Part shown: positions 4,142 through 53,789 of the stretch, in pieces
Layout: each line of letters starts with the position of its first letter
How positions within the stretch are numbered: the first letter of the stretch is position 1
Assembly: GCF_000011005.1 (NCBI RefSeq)
Contig: NC_013665.1
Span: 806,001-870,000 of the forward strand
Source: Methanocella paludicola SANAE
GTDB lineage: Archaea; Halobacteriota; Methanocellia; Methanocellales; Methanocellaceae
DNA length: 64,000 nt
Direction of reading: 5' to 3'
The notes under the pieces: generated by a model
Told to the model about the DNA's origin: nothing
Database searches by the model: none
The model's input: the letters and a program-made list of their open reading frames with translations, nothing else
Translations under genes and position numbers: made by a program

Positions 4142-4215
4142 GGGCCCGTGGTCTAGCTGGTTATGACGTCGCCTTGACATGGCGGAGGCCATGAGTTCGA
4201 ATCTCATCGGGCCCA
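4142..4215 (+). tRNA. tRNA-Val (GAC)
   Basis: A 74-nt cloverleaf can be folded by eye. The acceptor stem is GGGCCCG (4142-4148) with CGGGCCC (4208-4214) and discriminator A at 4215. The anticodon loop is TTGACAT, giving anticodon GAC (valine). The T-arm carries GAGTTCGAATCTC. CCA is not encoded and no intron is visible. A T-rich tract follows directly (from 4219), as expected for archaeal Pol termination. Confidence 0.96.
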
Positions 4216-8957: not shown

Positions 8958-9458
8958 TCAGTTTTTTATCACTACGCGGGAAGGCGTATACTTGAAGACC
9001 TCGCCTTTCCGGCCTTCGGCCTCGGCACGCGGAGCGGCGGGAGCCGACCTGTACTTGATGACCTCATCTTCCCTTTTATCGCTATACTTGATGACCTCGG
9101 GCCCGCGAGTCTCATCCCGCAGCGGCTTCAGCGGCTTGTCCGAGTACTTGAAGCGCTCGCCGTCCGCCTTCTTCAAGTCATGGCGCACGACGATGACCCT
9201 GCTCGGGTCTACATCGGGCGGCAGTTGCACTACGGGCTTTATGATCTCTACCGGGTTTTCAACGGCCGGCTTTTCCACTGGCGGCAGAATAATGGCCGCC
9301 GGCGTTTCCTGCACGGGCATCGGCGCCATCGGGTCCGATAGCAGCAGGACCGGCTTTTTCACCGGCTCATCCTTCGGCTTCAGGAAGCCGCTATTTACGG
9401 GCGCTCTGGCCCGTTTTCTTCTGAAAATGCTGAATAATCTTTCGAACATTTTTTCCAT
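8958..9458 (-). CDS. Pro/Lys-rich protein with repeated KYS motifs
   Basis: The protein has about 166 residues and is not recognised. A basic N-terminus (MFERLFSIFRRKRARAP) precedes a Pro/Val-rich, probably disordered middle (PVVQLPPDVDP; PVENPVEIIKPV). The C-terminal third repeats a short unit four times at spacings of about 15-20 residues: RFKYSDK, VIKYSDK, VIKYRSA, VFKYTPS. Such repeats suggest a multivalent peptide-binding or assembly tail. ATGs at 9488, 9458 and 9449 are all possible starts. There is no Cys, membrane span or catalytic motif. Confidence 0.6.
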   Translation of the reverse strand: MEKMFERLFSIFRRKRARAPVNSGFLKPKDEPVKKPVLLLSDPMAPMPVQETPAAIILPPVEKPAVENPVEIIKPVVQLPPDVDPSRVIVVRHDLKKADGERFKYSDKPLKPLRDETRGPEVIKYSDKREDEVIKYRSAPAAPRAEAEGRKGEVFKYTPSRVVIKN

Positions 9459-9598
9459 CCCCGGGCCCCATATTGGGAGCCCTCCCATATAATATTATTT
9501 GTTCAACTTAATTAAAACTTGCTATGCCGGCGCTTGCTGCGAGGTCATTCTCAAGTGATAAAGACTCAGTTTAGCTTATGCTGTGAGCCTGTGGGCGC

Positions 9599-10106
9599 TG
9601 ATTTGTTTGGTCGGTATCTCGAACCTCTCCAAAGGAATTAAACCACGAATTTTTCTTTTAGATTTTACTCACGAAGCCTCGAATACTCTAGCTCACCGTC
9701 AACGCACGAACTCTCTAATACACAGGGCAGTGCTCTAAGCCTCTAACGCGCTAACCCGAAAAGAAGTCTCTAAGGCTCTAAATCACGTTCGAAACGCTAA
9801 ACGGTGGAGCACGAACACTCCAAGAGCCCGGTTGTTACCCCGCATTTTGGGTGTTTGAGTCGTTGGCGTTTTAGCCGAGCCTTAGAGAGTTAGTGCTATG
9901 TCGTTTAGCGTTTCGAACGTGCATTCGAGCCTTCGAGCCTTCTTTTCGGGTTTGAGGCTTCGGGCGTTCGTGCAATGCCCAGAGTATTAGAGAGTTCGTG
10001 CGTTGACGGTGTTTTAGAGGCTTAGAAGTTTAGTGAGTAAAAATTATAAAAAAAGATTTGGGCTTTATTTCTTTTGGAGAGGTTCGTGTTACCGACCGAA
10101 CTGATT
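9599..10106. repeat. Long palindromic repeat element, copy A
   Basis: This non-coding ~508-bp element fills the gap between gfcR and the KYS-repeat gene. Its ends are inverted (left TGATTTGTTTGGTCGGTATC; right complement AATCAGTTCGGTCGGTAA) and the whole element is an imperfect palindrome. For example, CACCGTCAACGCACGAACTC on the left mirrors a GAGTTCGTGCGTTGACGGTG on the right. The interior is built of recurring short words such as CTCTAA and CGAA. Two further copies lie at 11784-12262 (opposite orientation, judged by the asymmetric centre) and 49698-51494. No ORF of note is present. Confidence 0.88.
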
Positions 10107-10149
10107 GTAAATGGCTTCTCCAATAAATTATAAAAAAGTCAGTGGCTTT

Positions 10150-10773
10150 TTATCCGACGCGCCCGACACGAATAAGCGACCGGACGGGAACGGAATCGAC
10201 ACTCTCGATGCCCTTCTTATCGATGATGACCGCCACGACCACGGCCTCGCCGCCGCTGTCCTGGATGAGCTTGATGGTCTCCTCCGCCGTGCCCCCGGTG
10301 GTGATGACGTCGTCGATGATGGCACAGCGCTTACCCCGCACGTCAGAGTAATTCTCGCTGAGCGTGGCCTTCATCTCTTTTGCCTCTTTGCCCTCCTCAT
10401 AGCCATGCTTGCCCGGGTGGACGACGGCCAGGTCCACGCCGTACTGGTAGGCCACGATGTTCGCCAGCGGCACGCCGCTGAGGGCTACGCCCACCACGGC
10501 GTCCACGTTCGTGTCGAGCTCGTTAAGAGTCTCCTCCACCATATCGGCCATGCAGGTCGCGATGAGCATAAGCCTGCTCGAGCTCTTCCCGATCGAGCTC
10601 CAGTCCACGAAAATATCCTTCGGCGCCGGCACCCCGGTCTCCTTTCTGGCGCGGGTGAGAAGCCAGGTGGCCGTCTCCCGCGAGATGTTCAGCTCGTCGG
10701 CGATCTCGCCCGATCTCAGGCCGCGGTTCCTCAGCTCGATCGCCTTTTCAATAAGGTCGTTAACGTTTCTCAT
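10150..10773 (-). CDS. gfcR: GfcR-type PyrE-like transcriptional regulator
   Basis: The protein has 207 residues. An N-terminal helix-turn-helix (NRGLRSGEIADELNISRETA, about 15-35) is fused to a type I phosphoribosyltransferase domain with the PRPP-binding loop CAIIDDVITTGGTAEE (about 150-165). This combination defines the archaeal GfcR family, formerly annotated as orotate phosphoribosyltransferase-like; haloarchaeal GfcR regulates glycolytic genes. The PRPP loop is intact, so nucleotide binding is likely. Its start overlaps the end of nob1 by 14 bases, so the two are co-transcribed. Its stop lies about 44 bases from palindrome copy A. Confidence 0.9.
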   Translation of the reverse strand: MRNVNDLIEKAIELRNRGLRSGEIADELNISRETATWLLTRARKETGVPAPKDIFVDWSSIGKSSSRLMLIATCMADMVEETLNELDTNVDAVVGVALSGVPLANIVAYQYGVDLAVVHPGKHGYEEGKEAKEMKATLSENYSDVRGKRCAIIDDVITTGGTAEETIKLIQDSGGEAVVVAVIIDKKGIESVDSVPVRSLIRVGRVG

Positions 10774-11458: not shown

Positions 11459-11737
11459 ATGGAACCAGGCCTGATGCAGCCGCCCGAGAAGTACTATATC
11501 TTAACGCTTGAACAGTACCTGTCGCTCATCAAGGGCGAGAAGGTGCGTGATTGCTACAGCGCGCTGCAGTACCTGGCCATGAGCGAGCATTTCCGGGATA
11601 AGAAGATCGTTGTCCGGACTAATATCGCGGAGCTTATCCGTGAGCGGTACCACGTTTCTAAGCGTGCCTTCTACGCTGCCAACCGTTTTGTGGAGTTTAC
11701 GGCGCAGACTACGCTGGATGTTGACGGGCAGTCCTGA
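11459..11737 (+). CDS. Small protein of unknown function
   Basis: The protein has 92 residues and is not recognised. The central part is helical and basic (YYILTLEQYLSLIKGEKVRDCY; IAELIRERYHVSKRAFYAANRF), and the YHVSKRAFYAANRFVEF segment has the feel of a DNA-binding helix pair, but no family can be named. It starts at ATG 11459 behind an AT-rich promoter region (TCATAAAGACATATACC). It lies between nob1 and palindrome copy B. Confidence 0.6.
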   Translation: MEPGLMQPPEKYYILTLEQYLSLIKGEKVRDCYSALQYLAMSEHFRDKKIVVRTNIAELIRERYHVSKRAFYAANRFVEFTAQTTLDVDGQS

Positions 11738-11783
11738 ATCACCCACAATATTTCCATAAATTATGCCATGTTCCCTGTGACGT

Positions 11784-12262
11784 TGATTTGTTTGGTCGGT
11801 ATCACGAACCTCCCCAAATGAAATAAACCACTAATTCTTTTTTAGATTTTACTCACCAAGGCTCTAAGCCTCTAGCGCACCGTCAATGCCCGAACTCTCG
11901 AAGCCTCAAACCCGAAAAGAAGGCTCTAAAGCTCGAATGCACGTTCGAAACGCTAAACGACATAGCACTAACTCTCTAAGGCACGGCTAAAACGCCAACG
12001 GCCCGAACACCTAAAATGCGGGGGAACGACCGGGCTCTTGGAGTGTTCGTGCTCCAACGTTTAGCGTTTCAAACGTGATTTAGGGCTTTAGAGCATTCGT
12101 TTCGGGTTAGCGCGTTAGAGGCTTAGAGCACTGCCCTGTGTATTAGAGAGTTCGGGCATTGACGGTGAGCTAGAGTATTCGAGGCTTCGTGAGTAAAATC
12201 TAAAAGAAAAATTCGTGCTTTAATTCCTTTGGAGATGTTCGTGATACCGACCAAACAAATCA
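11784..12262. repeat. Long palindromic repeat element, copy B (inverted relative to A)
   Basis: This 479-bp element has nearly identical ends (TGATTTGTTTGGTCGGTATC at the left, its complement at the right) and lies between two convergent genes. Its asymmetric centre (GGGGGAACGACCGGGCTCTT) reads as the reverse complement of the centre of copies A and C (GAGCCCGGT(C/T)GTT), so B is inverted relative to A. Several inner blocks also match A in reverse complement, for instance the ACGTTTAGCGTTTCAAACGTG block. Non-coding. Confidence 0.88.
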
Positions 12263-12282
12263 CAGCCTGCAAGAACATCAAC

Positions 12283-12810
12283 TTATTCTTTACCCAGCGA
12301 CCGGGCAAAGTCAATCGACTTGCACATCTGCCCCGTATTTGTCTTAATAATGTCGACCCGTATCTCGCTCCCCTCGACATGCAGTATTGCAATAGTCGGG
12401 TCGGCCATGCGGGGGAAGATGGGGCTCCCCGGACAGAGTAAAAGCACGTCGGTCTGGTCTATGACCGGGCTATGGAGATGGCCATAGATGAGCACTTTAA
12501 CGCCCATCTCGAGCGCCAGGTAGCGCATATTGGTCACGTCGGTACCATAGCGACCTTTATGAATAACTCCGATCTTTACGCCTTCGGCGTCGAATATCAC
12601 GCTTTCGGGCAGCGTCGACTTAATAGAATCATCGTCGCTGTTGCCGTGAACGGCGACCAGGCGCTTCGAGCTGGCCTTAACGGCCTCGTACACTACCGGA
12701 GTAATGAAGTCGCCCGCGTGGACCACCAGGTCGGCGTCCTTGAGCATGTCCAGCAATTCCTGCGGCATCTTAGCGCGCAGGTGCGTATCCGAAAGTACGG
12801 CGATCTTCAT
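12283..12810 (-). CDS. YfcE/MJ0936-type metallophosphoesterase
   Basis: The product has 175 residues, the usual length for this calcineurin-like phosphodiesterase family. The metal-binding motifs are in order: AVLSDTHLR (4-12), VVHAGDF (about 30), VHGNSDDD (about 54-61), VIHKGRYG (about 85, with His) and IYGHLHSP (about 107-114). It is a cytoplasmic binuclear metal enzyme that hydrolyses phosphodiesters; the physiological substrate is not known. It converges on the small unknown gene at 11459, with palindrome copy B between them. Confidence 0.92.
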   Translation of the reverse strand: MKIAVLSDTHLRAKMPQELLDMLKDADLVVHAGDFITPVVYEAVKASSKRLVAVHGNSDDDSIKSTLPESVIFDAEGVKIGVIHKGRYGTDVTNMRYLALEMGVKVLIYGHLHSPVIDQTDVLLLCPGSPIFPRMADPTIAILHVEGSEIRVDIIKTNTGQMCKSIDFARSLGKE

Positions 12811-19060: not shown

Positions 19061-19194
19061 GCAACGACCTTATGGCAATATGCTCCTTAGCACGAATAAT
19101 TTTTCTATCCATCGCCCACCAGTAAGCATTGTTAGATAATAAAAAATAAGACTCTTCCGCGGTTTTGGGATGAATATTTTTTTATTCTTTTCTA

Positions 19195-19512
19195 GTTATG
19201 CCGTCGTTGAGTGGTCCAACCACAGGGGCACGGAGCGCACGGGAGTTACACAGAGTTATTTTTTAATAATTTGAGACTCAGAGAGCTCGGAGGCCGGTTT
19301 ATTAGTTTGCCTGGGGCACAGAGTTTATTGAGGCTCGGTTGACCAATAAACAATAATGCGGTTTATCCTCGCCAGTGCCTCTAACTACTCCGTGCCCCGG
19401 GAATGTTATAAACCCGTCCCCTGTGCCCTCTGGGTCTCCCTTTATAAGATAACTCCGTGAAACTCAGCGCTCTCCGTGCCCCTGTGGTTGGACCACTCAA
19501 CGACGGCATAAC
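19195..19512. repeat. 318-bp inverted-repeat element, empty (MITE-like) form
   Basis: The ends are perfect inverted repeats of 41 bp, beginning GTTATGCCGTCGTTGAGTGG. The inner arms keep imperfect pairing and contain recurring words of the type CACAGGGGCACGGAG and CACAGAG. The same arms, with an 809-bp total length and a GxxExxY gene between them, occur at 52981-53789. Matching blocks include GGTTGACCAATAAAC and CCAGTGCCTCT, which are close together here but flank the gene there. No target duplication is obvious. Non-coding. Confidence 0.88.
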
Positions 19513-48314: not shown

Positions 48315-49601
48315 ATGAAACCCATTTTGCAGGTCGCACTCGATGAAGTGGAGCTCGCTAGGGCCGTGAACATCGCCCGAGAGGCCGTCGCCGGAGGCGC
48401 CGATTGGCTGGAGGCTGGCACGCCGCTCATCAAGAGCGAAGGCATGAGCGCCGTTCGCACGCTGAAAAATGAGTTCAGGGACCACGTCATCGTGGCCGAC
48501 ATGAAGACCATGGACACCGGCGCCATCGAAGTCGAGATGGCCATCAAGTCGGGCGCCGGAGTGGTGAGCATTTTAGGCGCGTGCGACGATTCTACGGTCG
48601 AGGAGTCGGTGCGCTCTGCCAGGAAGTACGGTGCCAGGCTCATGGTCGACCTTATTAACGTTCCTGACCCAGTGGCCCGTGCTGTTCGCCTTCAGGAGCT
48701 GGGCGCCGACATCATCGGCGTTCACGTAGGAATCGATCAGCAGATGGTGGGCAAAGACCCTCTTGATATTCTTAAGGGGGTCCGTAAAGCCGTTACTATT
48801 CAGATCGCCGTTGCCGGAGGGCTGGACGCTGACTCGGCGGCGGGCGCTGTGGCCCTGGGGGCTGACATCGTCATCGTTGGCGGTAATATCATCCGGGCCC
48901 GGGATGTGACAGCTTCGGCTAAAAGGGTCAGAGAGAGCATCGACTCGGCTGGAAAGCATTATATCGTCAGGGAGAAGAAGTCCATCGACGAAGAGACCAG
49001 AGAGATATTCATGCAGGTCTCGACGCCGAATATATCGGACGCCATGCACCGTGCCCCTGCCATGCGGGACGTGAAGCCCCTGTACGAGGGCATCAAGCTC
49101 GTTGGTAAGGCTGTTACGGTCCAGAACTTCCCTGGAGACTGGTCGAAGCCGGTGGAAGCTTCTGATGTGGCGCAGAAAGGCGAGGTCATCGTCATCTATA
49201 ATGGCAGTAACTACGTTGCGCCCTGGGGCGAATTAGCCTCGAGGGGGTGCCAGCAGAAGGGCATTGCCGGCGTTGTGATCGATGGTGCCATCCGTGATGT
49301 TGACGATATTAAACGGATCAAGTTCCCCGCCTTTGCCTCGGCGAGTGTTCCAAATGCAAATGACCCTAAGGGCTTCGGCGAGATCAATGCTGAAATTACT
49401 TGTGGTGGCTTACGTGTGAGACCTGGTGACTGGATCATCGGCGATGATAATGGCGTCATGGTGGTGCCCGCTGAGCGTGCCTACGAGGTTGCCCGGAGGG
49501 CTCTCGAAGTTAAGAAGTCTGAGGACCGGGTGCGGACGGAAATCGAGCGGGGGAAGACGCTCGCACAGGTGATGGATCTCTATAAGTGGGAGAAAAAATA
49601 A
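48315..49601 (+). CDS. Hexulose-6-phosphate synthase fused to RraA-like domain
   Basis: The product has 428 residues. Residues 1-210 are a (beta/alpha)8 hexulose-6-phosphate synthase of the OMP decarboxylase superfamily ([36 protein letters not shown] with the catalytic D-x-K-x-x-D; [27 protein letters not shown]). Residues about 225-428 form an RraA/demethylmenaquinone-methyltransferase-like domain ([51 protein letters not shown]). This fusion is common in methanogens, where the HPS part makes ribulose 5-phosphate from fructose 6-phosphate by releasing formaldehyde. The role of the RraA part is unsettled. Confidence 0.94.
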
Positions 49602-49926
49602 TAAGGTCTAGAATAGACCCGCTATGTTCACTGTCGTGCTAACCTGTTCGGTTGGCATCACTTGCCTTGAATCCATGCAATGTTCCCTATATGAGCTGGA
49701 TTGTTCGGTCGGTATCACGAACCTCTCCAAGGAAGTAAAACACGAATTTTTCTTTAGATTTTACTCACTAAGCCTCGAATGCTCTAAAACACCGTCAATG
49801 CCCGAACTCTCAAATACACTGGGCAGTGCTCTAAGTCTCTAACGCGCTAACCCAAAACGAAGGCTCTAAATCCCTAAAAAGATTTGAAACTCTAAACGGT
49901 GGAGCACGAACACTCTAAGAGCCCGG

Positions 49927-51209
49927 GGCGCTGTCCCGAGTTGTCTGTAAAATTATATTTTTGGTGTTATATATTTAGCCCTGTATTCTCATAAGGTATT
50001 TTGGAGAGATACAATATGAGAAGTACAAGGCCAATTAGTAGTACGGAGTCTGATGAGAAATATTTTGAGTTTGATAAAGATGCGGTGAGGAATGTTATCA
50101 GGGAGTTTTTGAATGGCGTGATGGAGGCCGAGGCCTGTGAGCAGGCCGGGGCCCGGCCTTACGAGAGGACCGATGGGAGGATGGCTTATCGTAACGGGTC
50201 TAAGAATCGGGACCTGGTCACTCGGTATGGCAGGGTAGAGTTGAAGAAGCCTCAGCTTCGTGGTGTGCCGTTTGAGACTAGCGTGTTCGCCAGGTACAGT
50301 AGGGCGGAGCAGGCGATCGTGAACACGATCTGCGAGTCCTACCTTCAGGGCATTAGCACTCGGAAGATGAAGAACGTGCTGTCACTGCTCGATGTGGACG
50401 TGAGCAGAAGTACCGTGTCAAGGATCACTAAGGAGCTTGACGAGGCGGTCCATGAGTTCCTCTCGAGGCCATTGGGGGTGATGCCTTACATCTACGTGGA
50501 TGCCACTTACATTAAGGTGAGGGATCATGGCATGTACCTGTCCAAGGCAGTGTATACGGCTATGGGCATCAACGAGGAGGGGTACAAGGAAATGATCGGT
50601 GTGAGGGTGATGCAACGAGAAGATGAGGACTCGTGGAAGGAGTTCTTCCAGGAACTATTGAAAAGAGGGCTGCAAGGAGTGAGATTGGTGGTCAGCGACG
50701 GTCACAGGGGCATAAAGCAGGCTGTTCGAAAAGAGTTCCTGGGGAGTGCATGGCAGTATTGTCACGTCCATTTCAGGAGGAACGTGTTGAAGACAGTGCC
50801 AATGAAGGAGAGGAGGGCGGTGAATGAGCTTCTTAAAGAGCACATGGAATCCCCTCACCTGCTGGCAAACTTTTCAGAAGAGTTGAAGGCTAAGGGGTAT
50901 GAGAAGGCGGGGAGTATCATCGAAAAGAACCTGGAAGACCTGTTCAATTATCTTGCGTTCCCCGCTTACCAGTGGCCGAAGCTTAGAACAACAAACACCC
51001 TGGAAAACATCCACTCAGTGATCAAAAAAAGAATCAAGCCCATAGGAGCCTTTCCAAACGACGATTCAGTACTGAGAGTCGTGGTTTCCATGCTTATCGA
51101 CGTAAATGAAGAATTTGCCACGGATAAAAGACATATCAACGTATACCGAAACGAACAATGAGAACCACGGGGCTAAAACACCAATTTACAGAAAAAACGG
51201 GACAGTCCC
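49927..51209 (+). mobile_element. IS256-family insertion sequence
   Basis: The element is 1283 bp with terminal inverted repeats of about 25 bp (left begins GGCGCTGTCCCGAGTTGTCT; right complement begins GGGACTGTCCCGTTTTTTCT) and encodes one mutator-type transposase. An 8-bp target duplication, GAGCCCGG, is seen at 49919-49926 and 51210-51217. Repeats and duplication both look intact, so the insertion is probably recent. Its target is the centre of palindrome copy C. Confidence 0.93.
50016..51161 (+). CDS. IS256/mutator-family transposase
   Basis: The product has 381 residues from ATG 50016 (GGAG nine bases upstream). The family features are the N-terminal zinc/HTH-like part (EAEACEQAGARPYERTDGRMAYRNGSKNRD), the first catalytic Asp in YIYVDATYIKVRDHG (about 160), the second in VRLVVSDGHRGIKQAV (about 228), C-H residues in WQYCHVHFRRNVL and the C-terminal RTTNTLENIHSVIKKRIK with the catalytic Glu. 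It is complete and likely active. Lys/Arg codon use is more AT-rich than the host genes. Confidence 0.94.
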   Translation: MRSTRPISSTESDEKYFEFDKDAVRNVIREFLNGVMEAEACEQAGARPYERTDGRMAYRNGSKNRDLVTRYGRVELKKPQLRGVPFETSVFARYSRAEQAIVNTICESYLQGISTRKMKNVLSLLDVDVSRSTVSRITKELDEAVHEFLSRPLGVMPYIYVDATYIKVRDHGMYLSKAVYTAMGINEEGYKEMIGVRVMQREDEDSWKEFFQELLKRGLQGVRLVVSDGHRGIKQAVRKEFLGSAWQYCHVHFRRNVLKTVPMKERRAVNELLKEHMESPHLLANFSEELKAKGYEKAGSIIEKNLEDLFNYLAFPAYQWPKLRTTNTLENIHSVIKKRIKPIGAFPNDDSVLRVVVSMLIDVNEEFATDKRHINVYRNEQ

Positions 51210-51576
51210 GAGCCCGGTCGTTCCCCACTCGTTAGGGTGTTAGTTGCGTTGGCGGTTTAACCGTGCATTAGGGTGTTGGTGCAAGGCTCGTTTAGCGTTT
51301 CAAACTTGAATTAGAGTTTTAGAGAATTCGTTTTGGGTTAGAGCATTAGTGGCTTAGGGCATTGCCCAGTGTATTAGGGACGTTCGAGAGTTGACGGTGT
51401 TGTAGAGACTTAGGGATTTAGTGAGTAAAATTATAAAAGAAAATTTGGGCTTTATTTCCTTTGGAGAGGTTCGTGATACCGACCGAACAAATCAACGCCT
51501 AATGGTAATATTAACAACTGGCATTGCGGGTATTGCACATCGGTAATATTTGTGTAGGTATATAAGAAAAATACGA

Positions 51577-52497
51577 TTAAGATTTAAGATCAACGATTTC
51601 TTTTAACCCAGCGCTTAAAGTGATCTTCGGCGAATATCCCAATATATCCCGGGCTAAAGTAATATCCGCGTAGCTATCTTTAATATCGCCGGGGCGCTCT
51701 GGCAGTAACTCCGGACGCATCGAATCTTTACCATATAATCGTATGACCATCCGCGCCAGCTCATCGATCCTCGTCTTAGTACCGGCGCCGCAGTTGAATG
51801 CCTTACCGATGGCGGCCGAGTTTTCTAGCATGAGCATGACCATATTCACGACATCGTGTACCGAAACGAAGTCCCTGGTAGCGCTCCCATCGCCGAAGAT
51901 GACGGGCGGCTTACCTTTACTCACACTATCCATGAACTTCGATATTACGCCGCTGTACGGGTTCGACGGATCCTGCCTCGGGCTGTAGATATTGAATGGC
52001 CTGATGACGGTCGAAGGCAGGCCGTAGGCCCGGTGGAACATGAGGGCGTATTTTTCTCCGGCGAGCTTGCTGGCGCCGTACGGGGACAGCGGCTCCTGGG
52101 GGTGCGATTCGTCGACCGGCAACCGGACAGGATCGCCGTATGTAGCAGCAGAGCTAAAATAAACAAAGCGCTTTATGTCGGCTTTTCGTGCGGCGTTCAG
52201 GAGGTTGAGCGTGCCGATAATGTTGTTCTGGGCATCGAACAATGGGTCTTCCATGGAGCGGGAGACGTAGATCTGCGCCGCACAGTGGATAACGGCATCG
52301 GCGCTGTGCATGAGGATGCTCACTGTGCTCGCATCCCGGATGTCGCCCTTTACAAAGTTAGCCTCCGAGGGATAAGGATTAACCGTAGAAGAGAGATTGT
52401 CGATGATAGTAACGATATTGCCACGTTGAACAAGCTCCTCGCAAAGATAAGAGCCCACCTGGCCCAGGCCGCCGGTAAGAAGAATACGAGATGACAT
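51577..52497 (-). CDS. NAD-dependent epimerase/dehydratase (UDP-sugar 4-epimerase-like)
   Basis: The product has 306 residues and is an extended SDR. Its NAD motif GGLGQVGSYLCEELVQRGN lies at the N-terminus; the active site S-S-A-A-T-Y (FSSAATYGDPVRLPVDE) and YGASKLAGEKYAL (Tyr-x3-Lys) are intact, and RPFNIYSPRQDPSNPYSGVISKF is typical of UDP-glucose 4-epimerase homologues. It could supply UDP-galactose or UDP-GalNAc for surface glycans. Its start is two bases from the end of the frame-restored nucleotidyltransferase gene, so the two may share a transcript. Confidence 0.88.
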   Translation of the reverse strand: MSSRILLTGGLGQVGSYLCEELVQRGNIVTIIDNLSSTVNPYPSEANFVKGDIRDASTVSILMHSADAVIHCAAQIYVSRSMEDPLFDAQNNIIGTLNLLNAARKADIKRFVYFSSAATYGDPVRLPVDESHPQEPLSPYGASKLAGEKYALMFHRAYGLPSTVIRPFNIYSPRQDPSNPYSGVISKFMDSVSKGKPPVIFGDGSATRDFVSVHDVVNMVMLMLENSAAIGKAFNCGAGTKTRIDELARMVIRLYGKDSMRPELLPERPGDIKDSYADITLARDILGYSPKITLSAGLKEIVDLKS

Positions 52498-52830: not shown

Positions 52831-52980
52831 ACCTCTCATTATTGAGCTTATAAAGGACACTATAGACCGCTCTGGATGGCATTGAGTCTATATTGGGATT
52901 TTGGGTTTATTAAGGGTTTTGGAATGTGATGACTTGGTGATGCTATAAACTTTAGCTGATATGGATTCTTGCATTTTCCC

Positions 52981-53789
52981 GTTATGCCTTGGTGGCGTGT
53001 CCTTAACCACAGGGGCACGGGGAGCGCAGAGTTCACAGAGATTTTTTTTATAGATGGAGGCTCAGAGGGCACAGGGCCGGTTTATTGGCTTTCCTGGGGC
53101 ACAGAGATTATCGAGGCACGGTTGACCAATAAACAGTTCATGAGGAATAACATATATTTTCATTTTAATGAAAAAACCTATAACCTATTACAATAATTAC
53201 ATTTTTACGAGTAAGGTATTGAAAAAAGATCCCATACTCAATGAGATTAATAAGATCACCGGACAGATCGTTGACGCAGCGTTCGTCGTGCATACGACAT
53301 TCGGGCCGGGACTGCTCGAAAGCATTTACGAGGAATGCTTGATACACGAATTAAAACTCAGAGGCATAAAAGTAGAATCACAGATCAACGTGCCTCTCGA
53401 CTTCAAAGGTTTATACATTGAACGAGGCCTCATCCTCGACGTATTGGTAGAAGGCCAGGTAATCGTCGAAGTAAAATCGGTCAAAGAACTCCACCCCGTC
53501 TACGAACAACAATTACTAACATACATGAAGATAACAGGAAAACGAGTAGGATTATTAATTAACTTTAACGCACCGCTGATAAAAGACGGCATAAAACGAA
53601 TGGTCCTATAAACCATTTTTCCCCACCAGTGCCTCTACAATCTCTGTGCCCCAGGAAAATAAAAAATGAGACTCTGAGTACTCCGTGTCTCAAATTATAA
53701 AAAAGTCTCCGTGAAACTCCCGTGCGCTCTGCGCCCCTGTGGTTGCTCGAATTCGCATCAGCGAAAAGGACACTCAACGACAGCATAAC
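52981..53789. mobile_element. Inverted-repeat element carrying a GxxExxY gene (809 bp)
   Basis: Long inverted arms (52981 to about 53132 and about 53620-53789) match those of the empty element at 19195-19512: ends GTTATGCC..., AACCACAGGGGCACGG, GGTTGACCAATAAAC and CCAGTGCCTCT. Between the arms sits one gene (53168-53611). The right arm has an extra ~20 bases near 53750-53769. Recurring CACAGAG/CACGGAG words at about 10-base spacing run through both arms. No obvious target duplication is seen. Interpretation as a mobile unit rests on this pair of full and empty copies. Confidence 0.75.
53168..53611 (+). CDS. GxxExxY protein (PD-(D/E)XK-like nuclease fold)
   Basis: The product has 147 residues. 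The family signature G-x-x-E-x-x-Y is in TFGPGLLESIYEECLIHELK (about 47-66), and the predicted nuclease core follows: LILDVLVEGQVIVEVKSVKE has the D...E-x-K arrangement (about 101-120), then a QQLLTYMKITG helix. The N-terminal 25 residues are atypical, and a later start is possible. Family members are widespread, small and without a proven function. The gene sits exactly between the two arms of an inverted-repeat element, which suggests that it is cargo or the acting enzyme of that element. It is AT-richer than the host core genes. Confidence 0.88.
   Translation: MKKPITYYNNYIFTSKVLKKDPILNEINKITGQIVDAAFVVHTTFGPGLLESIYEECLIHELKLRGIKVESQINVPLDFKGLYIERGLILDVLVEGQVIVEVKSVKELHPVYEQQLLTYMKITGKRVGLLINFNAPLIKDGIKRMVL

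Follow-up and report, generated by a model that had tools for sequence, protein, structure and literature searches.

Gene-less palindromic repeats of Methanocella paludicola and their probable kinship with mobile elements that carry a GxxExxY nuclease gene

The long intergenic palindromes analysed here in Methanocella paludicola SANAE, which we call family F1, are probably gene-less, non-autonomous members of a group of nuclease-associated mobile palindromic elements, somewhat comparable to the REP/RAYT system. A complete element of this group would consist of an inverted array of CNCNRA-type words, mostly 8–10 bp apart, around a small gene for a GxxExxY nuclease of the PD-(D/E)XK type. In the mechanism we propose, the nuclease would recognise the words of both arms, possibly in an extruded cruciform, and the breaks it makes would allow the unit to be copied elsewhere in the genome, for the most part downstream of stop codons. 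Copies lacking the gene would rely on the nuclease in trans, and repeated exchange between copies would keep words and ends alike while turning the arms into a fine mosaic. That the nuclease moves the palindromes is what we infer from sequence comparison, and F1 in the source genome may be either idle or mobilised in trans.

In the window, i.e., the whole 64,000-nt stretch analysed (positions 806,001 to 870,000 of contig NC_013665.1), a first-pass annotation had reported three palindromes with common ends, one between tandem genes and two between convergent genes. They are indeed present with these ends and in these gene contexts, and are palindromic over almost their whole length:

9599..10110 (search match at genome 815599-816106), + strand: F1 copy A, a gene-free imperfect palindrome of ~510 bp
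8958-9488 and 10150-10773, both − strand: tandem genes around copy A
11784..12265, − strand: F1 copy B, a palindrome of ~480 bp
11460-11738 (+ strand) and 12283-12810 (− strand): convergent genes around copy B
49698..51494, + strand: F1 copy C, interrupted centrally by an IS256-family insertion
48315-49601 (+ strand) and 51577-52497 (− strand): convergent genes around copy C

The family is, however, larger than had been claimed, as a search with copy A combined with a pattern search for the ends yielded 39 complete copies in the single 2,957,635-bp contig. Intact copies (34 of the 39) span 463–514 bp, measured from the outer edge of one end motif to that of the other, the five interrupted copies span 1782–1832 bp, and at least two solo ends are present, at 2524302 and 1847249. 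Terminal inverted repeats occur in all 39 copies, with a TTYGGTCGGTAWCNCGAAC-type motif at both ends, and the similarity between pairs of similar copies fades ~0–20 bp beyond TYGGTCGG, which sets the F1 unit at ~500–520 bp. The arms are imperfect, with a mean own-arm identity of 0.763 over the 39 copies. Outside the host family, a GTDB scan with the F1 core pattern returned nine single matches in unrelated bacteria, by our estimate about the number expected by chance, from a set in which entries for the source genome or its near relatives may be missing. The same pattern had no match in IMG/VR, plasmids or phages, and Rfam covariance models run against the window matched only a tRNA at 4142-4215 and left F1 unmatched.

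The F1 arms are built of directional words. On the inward-reading strand, CNCNRA occurs 1332 times in the 78 arms; the other strand has 42 occurrences, and 100 shuffles gave ~225 on average, with 256 as the highest value. The commonest step between successive words is exactly 8 bp (n = 442), and the autocorrelation peak at lag 8 stands out, so that F1 falls among inverted arrays of CNCNRA-type directional words spaced 8–10 bp apart. A common logic between F1 and a CACAGAG element of the window had been suspected from the texture of the repeats, and the suspicion is supported: each consists of CNCNRA-type words in an inverted array, and a GxxExxY gene occupies the centre of the CACAGAG element. 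This second kind of palindrome, F3, is found in the window with and without the gene:

19171..19512, no strand assigned: gene-less F3 palindrome of CACAGAG words, a case parallel to F1
52957..53789, + strand: gene-bearing F3 element of CACAGAG words, with arms as in 19171-19512 plus a gene segment of ~470 bp
53168..53611, + strand: gene for a GxxExxY (TIGR04256) nuclease of 147 aa, located in the F3 loop

In the gene-bearing form, the left arm aligns to 19171-19361 and the right arm to 19362-19512, and the two forms therefore differ by ~470 bp, with the gene, at the exact centre. In all, the source genome contains six GxxExxY genes, each between inverted arrays and none in F1, and the array scores at these six loci (44–102) lie above the maximum of 32 found at 200 random window positions.

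Gene-bearing relatives of F1 itself were found in a sister genus, represented by genome G001. This genome has at least 40 palindromes homologous to F1, of ~556 bp (40 scored of 140 candidates), with related arms and different ends, and 33 of the 40 have ~100 bp more of common context on both sides. A few appeared by eye to be nested in an outer word palindrome, and this was rejected as a rule, given a median of 21 for own outer flanks versus 20 for mismatched ones. Between the arms of three F1-type G001 copies lies a GxxExxY gene (TIGR04256; Pfam PDDEXK_3), one of them broken. A copy with a gene in its centre, which the first-pass annotation had proposed to look for, is thus found in the sister genus but in none (0/39) of the F1 copies of the source genome.

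The association between GxxExxY genes and inverted arrays extends beyond the family. We scored inverted similarity between the two flanks of the gene, taking at most 700 bp of each, with a pass at 35 or above, a threshold chosen after the controls had been seen. At this level, 34 of 50 GxxExxY loci passed, and 16 of the 50 fell below; of the control loci, which code for PIN-domain proteins and come from the phylum of G127, 2 of 29 passed (Fisher p 5e-8). The passing loci comprise 13 of 15 in Methanocellaceae, 4 of 7 in the bacterial genome G120 and 17 of 28 in a sample from the phylum Chloroflexi (G127; among the matches listed). Four loci in other families of the archaeal phylum (G079, G087, G092 and G107) all score 32 or less; including them, the count becomes 34 of 54. 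The Chloroflexi sample and the PIN control each started from 30 loci among the matches listed; loci dropped for short flanks were L149 (Methanocellaceae), L185 and L193 (Chloroflexi sample) and L226 (PIN), and the count excludes the broken locus L163 as well as fragmentary or sub-threshold GxxExxY matches. An earlier control used mismatched flanks and is weak, as words are shared between different loci; the 99% level was passed there by 6 of 29 own pairs and the 95% level by 19 of 29. Among plasmid GxxExxY loci, three of seven (Bernardetia, Gemmatirosa and Bacteroides finegoldii) score 36–117 and four are without inverted arrays at the threshold, and no match to the window protein was confirmed in IMG/VR.

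The arrays at these loci share a word type and differ in vocabulary. The pattern CRCNRAK occurs 102 times in the arms of the 34 passing loci, compared with 9.5 after shuffling (maximum 19 in 200 shuffles), and the words themselves differ between elements (e.g., CACAGAG, CGCGAAG, CGCCAAG, CGCAGATT and CACGGATA). Among loci with at least two CNCNRA-type words, the distance between nucleases correlates with the distance between words (r 0.36, p 2e-4, 410 between-genome pairs, with host relatedness not controlled); with unfiltered 5-mers, the correlation is 0.26 (p 2e-4, 500 pairs), and for the Chloroflexi sample alone it is 0.32 (p 0.0016). Within Methanocellaceae alone, the correlation was not significant (r 0.09, p 0.22). 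What looks like mobile palindromic DNA with a nuclease gene is widespread and apparently undescribed. We found no description of an association between the nuclease and palindromes in titles or the opening parts of abstracts, a body of text that leaves subscription journals mostly uncovered, so earlier reports may exist. Two publications found to mention GxxExxY (PMC8934634 and PMC12085832) do not, in their accessible parts, deal with repeats.

In an alignment of 30 GxxExxY protein sequences, D80, K92, Q104, Y108, N121 and F122 are invariant, and G34, G36, E39, Y42, E49, E90 and R133 are conserved in at least 90%. The structure model (pLDDT 93.8) has a PD-(D/E)XK nuclease fold, and D80, E90 and K92 fit its catalytic pattern. 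Fold comparison gave the highest Z score (9.6) for SSO0001, which we take to be Cas4-like, followed by other nucleases, archaeal Hjc (6.8) among them, while an XisH-type protein reached 6.0, values below 8 being weak; going by the predicted model, these matches leave the function of GxxExxY unfixed. No solved homologue was detected by sequence at E < 0.1, and PADLOC gave no match to anti-phage defence. GxxExxY is a named protein family for which, to our knowledge, no function is known.

Copy C, which the first-pass annotation had recorded as interrupted, is an ordinary F1 copy split by an insertion rather than an odd member of the family:

49927..51209, + strand: IS256-family insertion of 1283 bp at the centre of copy C, with its transposase at 50016-51161

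The insertion is bounded by an 8-bp target duplication, GAGCCCGG, at 49919-49926 and 51210-51217, and an identical transposase occurs in only one other copy (1838184-1839326), also at an F1 centre. The insertions in the five interrupted F1 copies represent three different elements of the IS256 family and all lie centrally, and 8-bp duplications are readable for four of the insertions (GAGCCCGG, CGATTGCA, CACTAACA and CGCATTTT). Six of the eight loci with IS256-type transposases in the genome lie in the centres of long palindromes (window 49927-51209; genome 1838184, 912968, 1139595, 1490971 and 2350306), five of them in F1 and one (2350306) at the centre of a palindrome of CACAAAG words, while two are outside inverted repeats. 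Palindrome loops attract IS256-family insertions. ISRm5, an IS256-family element, targets REP sequences (PMC1525189, in its accessible part), and the insertions in F1 centres are therefore a new case of a known habit.

This habit lends some weight to a different account, in which F1 would be a palindromic repeat in its own right that owes its dispersal to another agent (an unrecognised IS, an HUH transposase or host recombination), and both GxxExxY genes and IS256 elements would simply invade palindrome centres, cruciform loops being tolerated or preferred targets. The lack of a nuclease gene in the F1 copies of this genome also speaks for it. We nevertheless regard it as rather unlikely, as words and nuclease sequence correlate across genomes, arrays are found at GxxExxY loci in distant phyla, no target duplication was found at F1, and no IS with its ends was seen among the genomic end-motif matches that were read. 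As to the duplication, direct repeats shared by a copy's own flanks average 6.28 bp, compared with 6.35 bp in mismatched flanks, and 8-mers noticed beside a few F1 copies (CTGATTTG/CAAATCAG) failed as target duplications when compared with shuffled pairs.

The first-pass annotation had offered a non-autonomous transposon among its readings, and this is supported in outline, given the dispersal, an empty orthologous site in two relatives and the gene-bearing relatives; the more specific form of an ordinary IS-derived MITE is unsupported, because no target duplication was found at the F1 flanks.

The empty site is that of copy B. The genes that flank it are adjacent, with no palindrome, in G001 and G002, which represent two other genera of the family, and the gap between the two stop codons there is, as judged by eye from the sequence, ~15 bp or less. 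Copy B is therefore an insertion relative to two sister genera, and this position shows turnover, the absence of which would have argued against mobility. After the orthologue of a gene beside copy A, no comparable palindrome is present in G001, G002 or G003, although this locus is not a clean empty site because further neighbours differ. Strong neighbour matches (>250 bits) were available for only 3 of the 39 copies. The genes next to the copy at 1104199 have relatives in G001 that are likewise accompanied by a palindrome, but there it lies across one of the genes from the position of the F1 copy. The copy at 1677529 and a G001 palindrome follow the same gene (80% identity over 266 aa), with no neighbour beyond that gene matching at the same place, and this copy may be shared with G001. 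On these comparisons, the placement of F1 is mostly unconserved in the sister genus.

Where the copies sit relative to genes could also suggest that F1 is retained as a bidirectional transcription terminator or an mRNA 3'-end structure. By simple gene calls, 20 of the 39 copies are between convergent genes, 17 between tandem genes and 2 between divergent genes (one of the latter being copy A, which is actually in a tandem context), whereas the 32 window gaps longer than 30 bp comprise 5 convergent, 19 tandem and 8 divergent ones (convergent excess, p 2e-7; divergent deficit, p 1e-3). Copy A, folded as single-stranded DNA, is moreover very stable, at −155 kcal/mol versus −62.7 ± 4.6 for 100 dinucleotide shuffles (z −20). 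However, mobile repeats, too, survive mainly as insertions behind genes, copy B is missing where its gene pair is conserved, and the arms bear no mark of a selected stem. The two arms of a copy are of two subtypes, arms of the same subtype being 0.82–0.84 identical across copies and opposite arms 0.77, and the similarity of the two arms within a copy (0.763) does not exceed that of opposite arms taken from different copies (0.768), with 4907 of 5000 shuffles reaching the observed value. This lack of covariation between arms within a copy, and thus of the compensatory stem changes by which an RNA function was to be recognised, argues against a selected RNA hairpin, which we dropped as the main reading. 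A role as terminator or 3'-end structure accordingly seems improbable to us.

The arm sequences are mosaics on a fine scale, a pattern to be expected if copies exchange sequence or words switch repeatedly. In the arm alignment of 247 columns, uniformity reaches 95% or more in 131, and a second letter makes up 20% or more in 70. Linkage between variable columns decays with distance (r2 0.49 up to 5 bp, 0.14 past 15 bp), and ~90% of distant column pairs show all four combinations. Transversions are usually rare, yet 15 of the 70 two-letter columns are G/T, several of them at the fourth letter of a word, where many words toggle between T and G (CTCTAA/CTCGAA).

The copies are also unevenly spread along the chromosome, with an F1-free arc of 849 kb that contains position 0 (a largest gap of this size has P 0.00015). 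The six GxxExxY genes and the eight loci of IS256 type are, without exception, within 0.49–2.36 Mb, so the origin region is avoided alike by the three kinds of locus. PMC3146512 predicts the origin at cdc6 MCP_0001, and its accessible part describes the origin half as the conserved half of the chromosome. That F1 copies are chromosome-organising sites, such as binding arrays of a nucleoid or segregation protein kept out of the origin region, would suit the directional 8-bp words and the arc around the predicted origin, but is very improbable given that GxxExxY genes and IS256-type loci keep to the same range, that the half in question is the conserved one, that F1 placement is mostly unconserved in the sister genus, and that avoidance of the origin region is explained equally well by the load of mobile DNA.

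The reading of F1 as gene-less members of nuclease-associated mobile elements can be compared with several known systems. REPs resemble F1 in being located behind genes, and RAYTs are of the HUH/Y1 type, unlike the enzyme of the palindromes described here, which has a PD-(D/E)XK fold. Further points of likeness are that the palindromes are intergenic and number in the tens, that they are linked to an enzyme family of their own, that copies without a gene outnumber the genes (REP/BIME and RAYTs: PMC2817692 and PMC3116915, in their accessible parts) and that IS elements target them. REPs are described, in the accessible part of PMC3733652, as 20–40 bp palindromes with a GTAG or CGTC tag, whereas F1 consists of ~500 bp of 8-bp words and lies outside that size range. 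MITEs share with F1 the terminal inverted repeats, the lack of a gene, the tens of copies and the empty orthologous site, and differ in that F1 is palindromic throughout; no target duplication was found for it, and no IS with matching ends was seen among the genomic matches that were read. Intervening sequences of 23S rRNA with an S23 four-helix-bundle gene likewise combine an extended stem and a loop that holds a small gene, but F1 is dispersed between protein genes. S23 genes were rejected as a partner, as none is present in four Methanocellaceae genomes and four loci scored elsewhere have no arrays (a fifth was too short for scoring). Homing endonuclease genes include PD-(D/E)XK types and are similar in that a small nuclease gene is the sole gene of a spreading element; by contrast, GxxExxY genes are outside introns and inteins, have word arrays around them, and have gene-less derivatives that reach unrelated sites.

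More broadly, it is quite possible, though somewhat less likely than not, that archaea and bacteria share a class of mobile elements in which a single loop-encoded GxxExxY nuclease reads a private vocabulary of words, repeated along both inverted arrays, and copies the whole palindrome with no transposase, integrase or reverse transcriptase and no target duplication. Gene-less derivatives such as F1 would then make up the bulk of the class and explain intergenic repeats of the CACAGAG and CACGAAG types. If true, small palindromes would have, besides the routes of spread already known, one that needs a nuclease only. The position of GxxExxY in the loop of inverted word arrays suggests a first testable job for the family, and families of odd intergenic repeats would be tied to one enzyme family; the matching of nucleases and words also points to a code of DNA recognition for whose reading the sequence would suffice.

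Some further arrangements of these palindromes and genes were observed. The GxxExxY genes on two plasmids, from Fusobacteria bacterium ZRK30 and from Prevotella nigrescens (L249 and L250), are flanked by what appear by eye to be direct repeats. At L248 of Sphingomonas parapaucimobilis, a GxxExxY gene is closely packed between fabD and fabG and oriented as they are, and words were seen on one side only. Around the F1 copy at 1178985 lies a further inverted pair whose end motif is that of F1 (TCGGTCGGTATCACTCACATTTCTT; genome 1178937-1179532), giving the look of a palindrome within a palindrome. In addition, a second family, F2, comprises palindromes of ~309 bp that have the end motif TTCGGTCGGTATCACGAA in common with F1 and a different interior; its copies are at genome positions 488464, 706165, 1466926, 2574425, 272891 and 1055023, and the two that were read are without a large gene and share their ends with F1.
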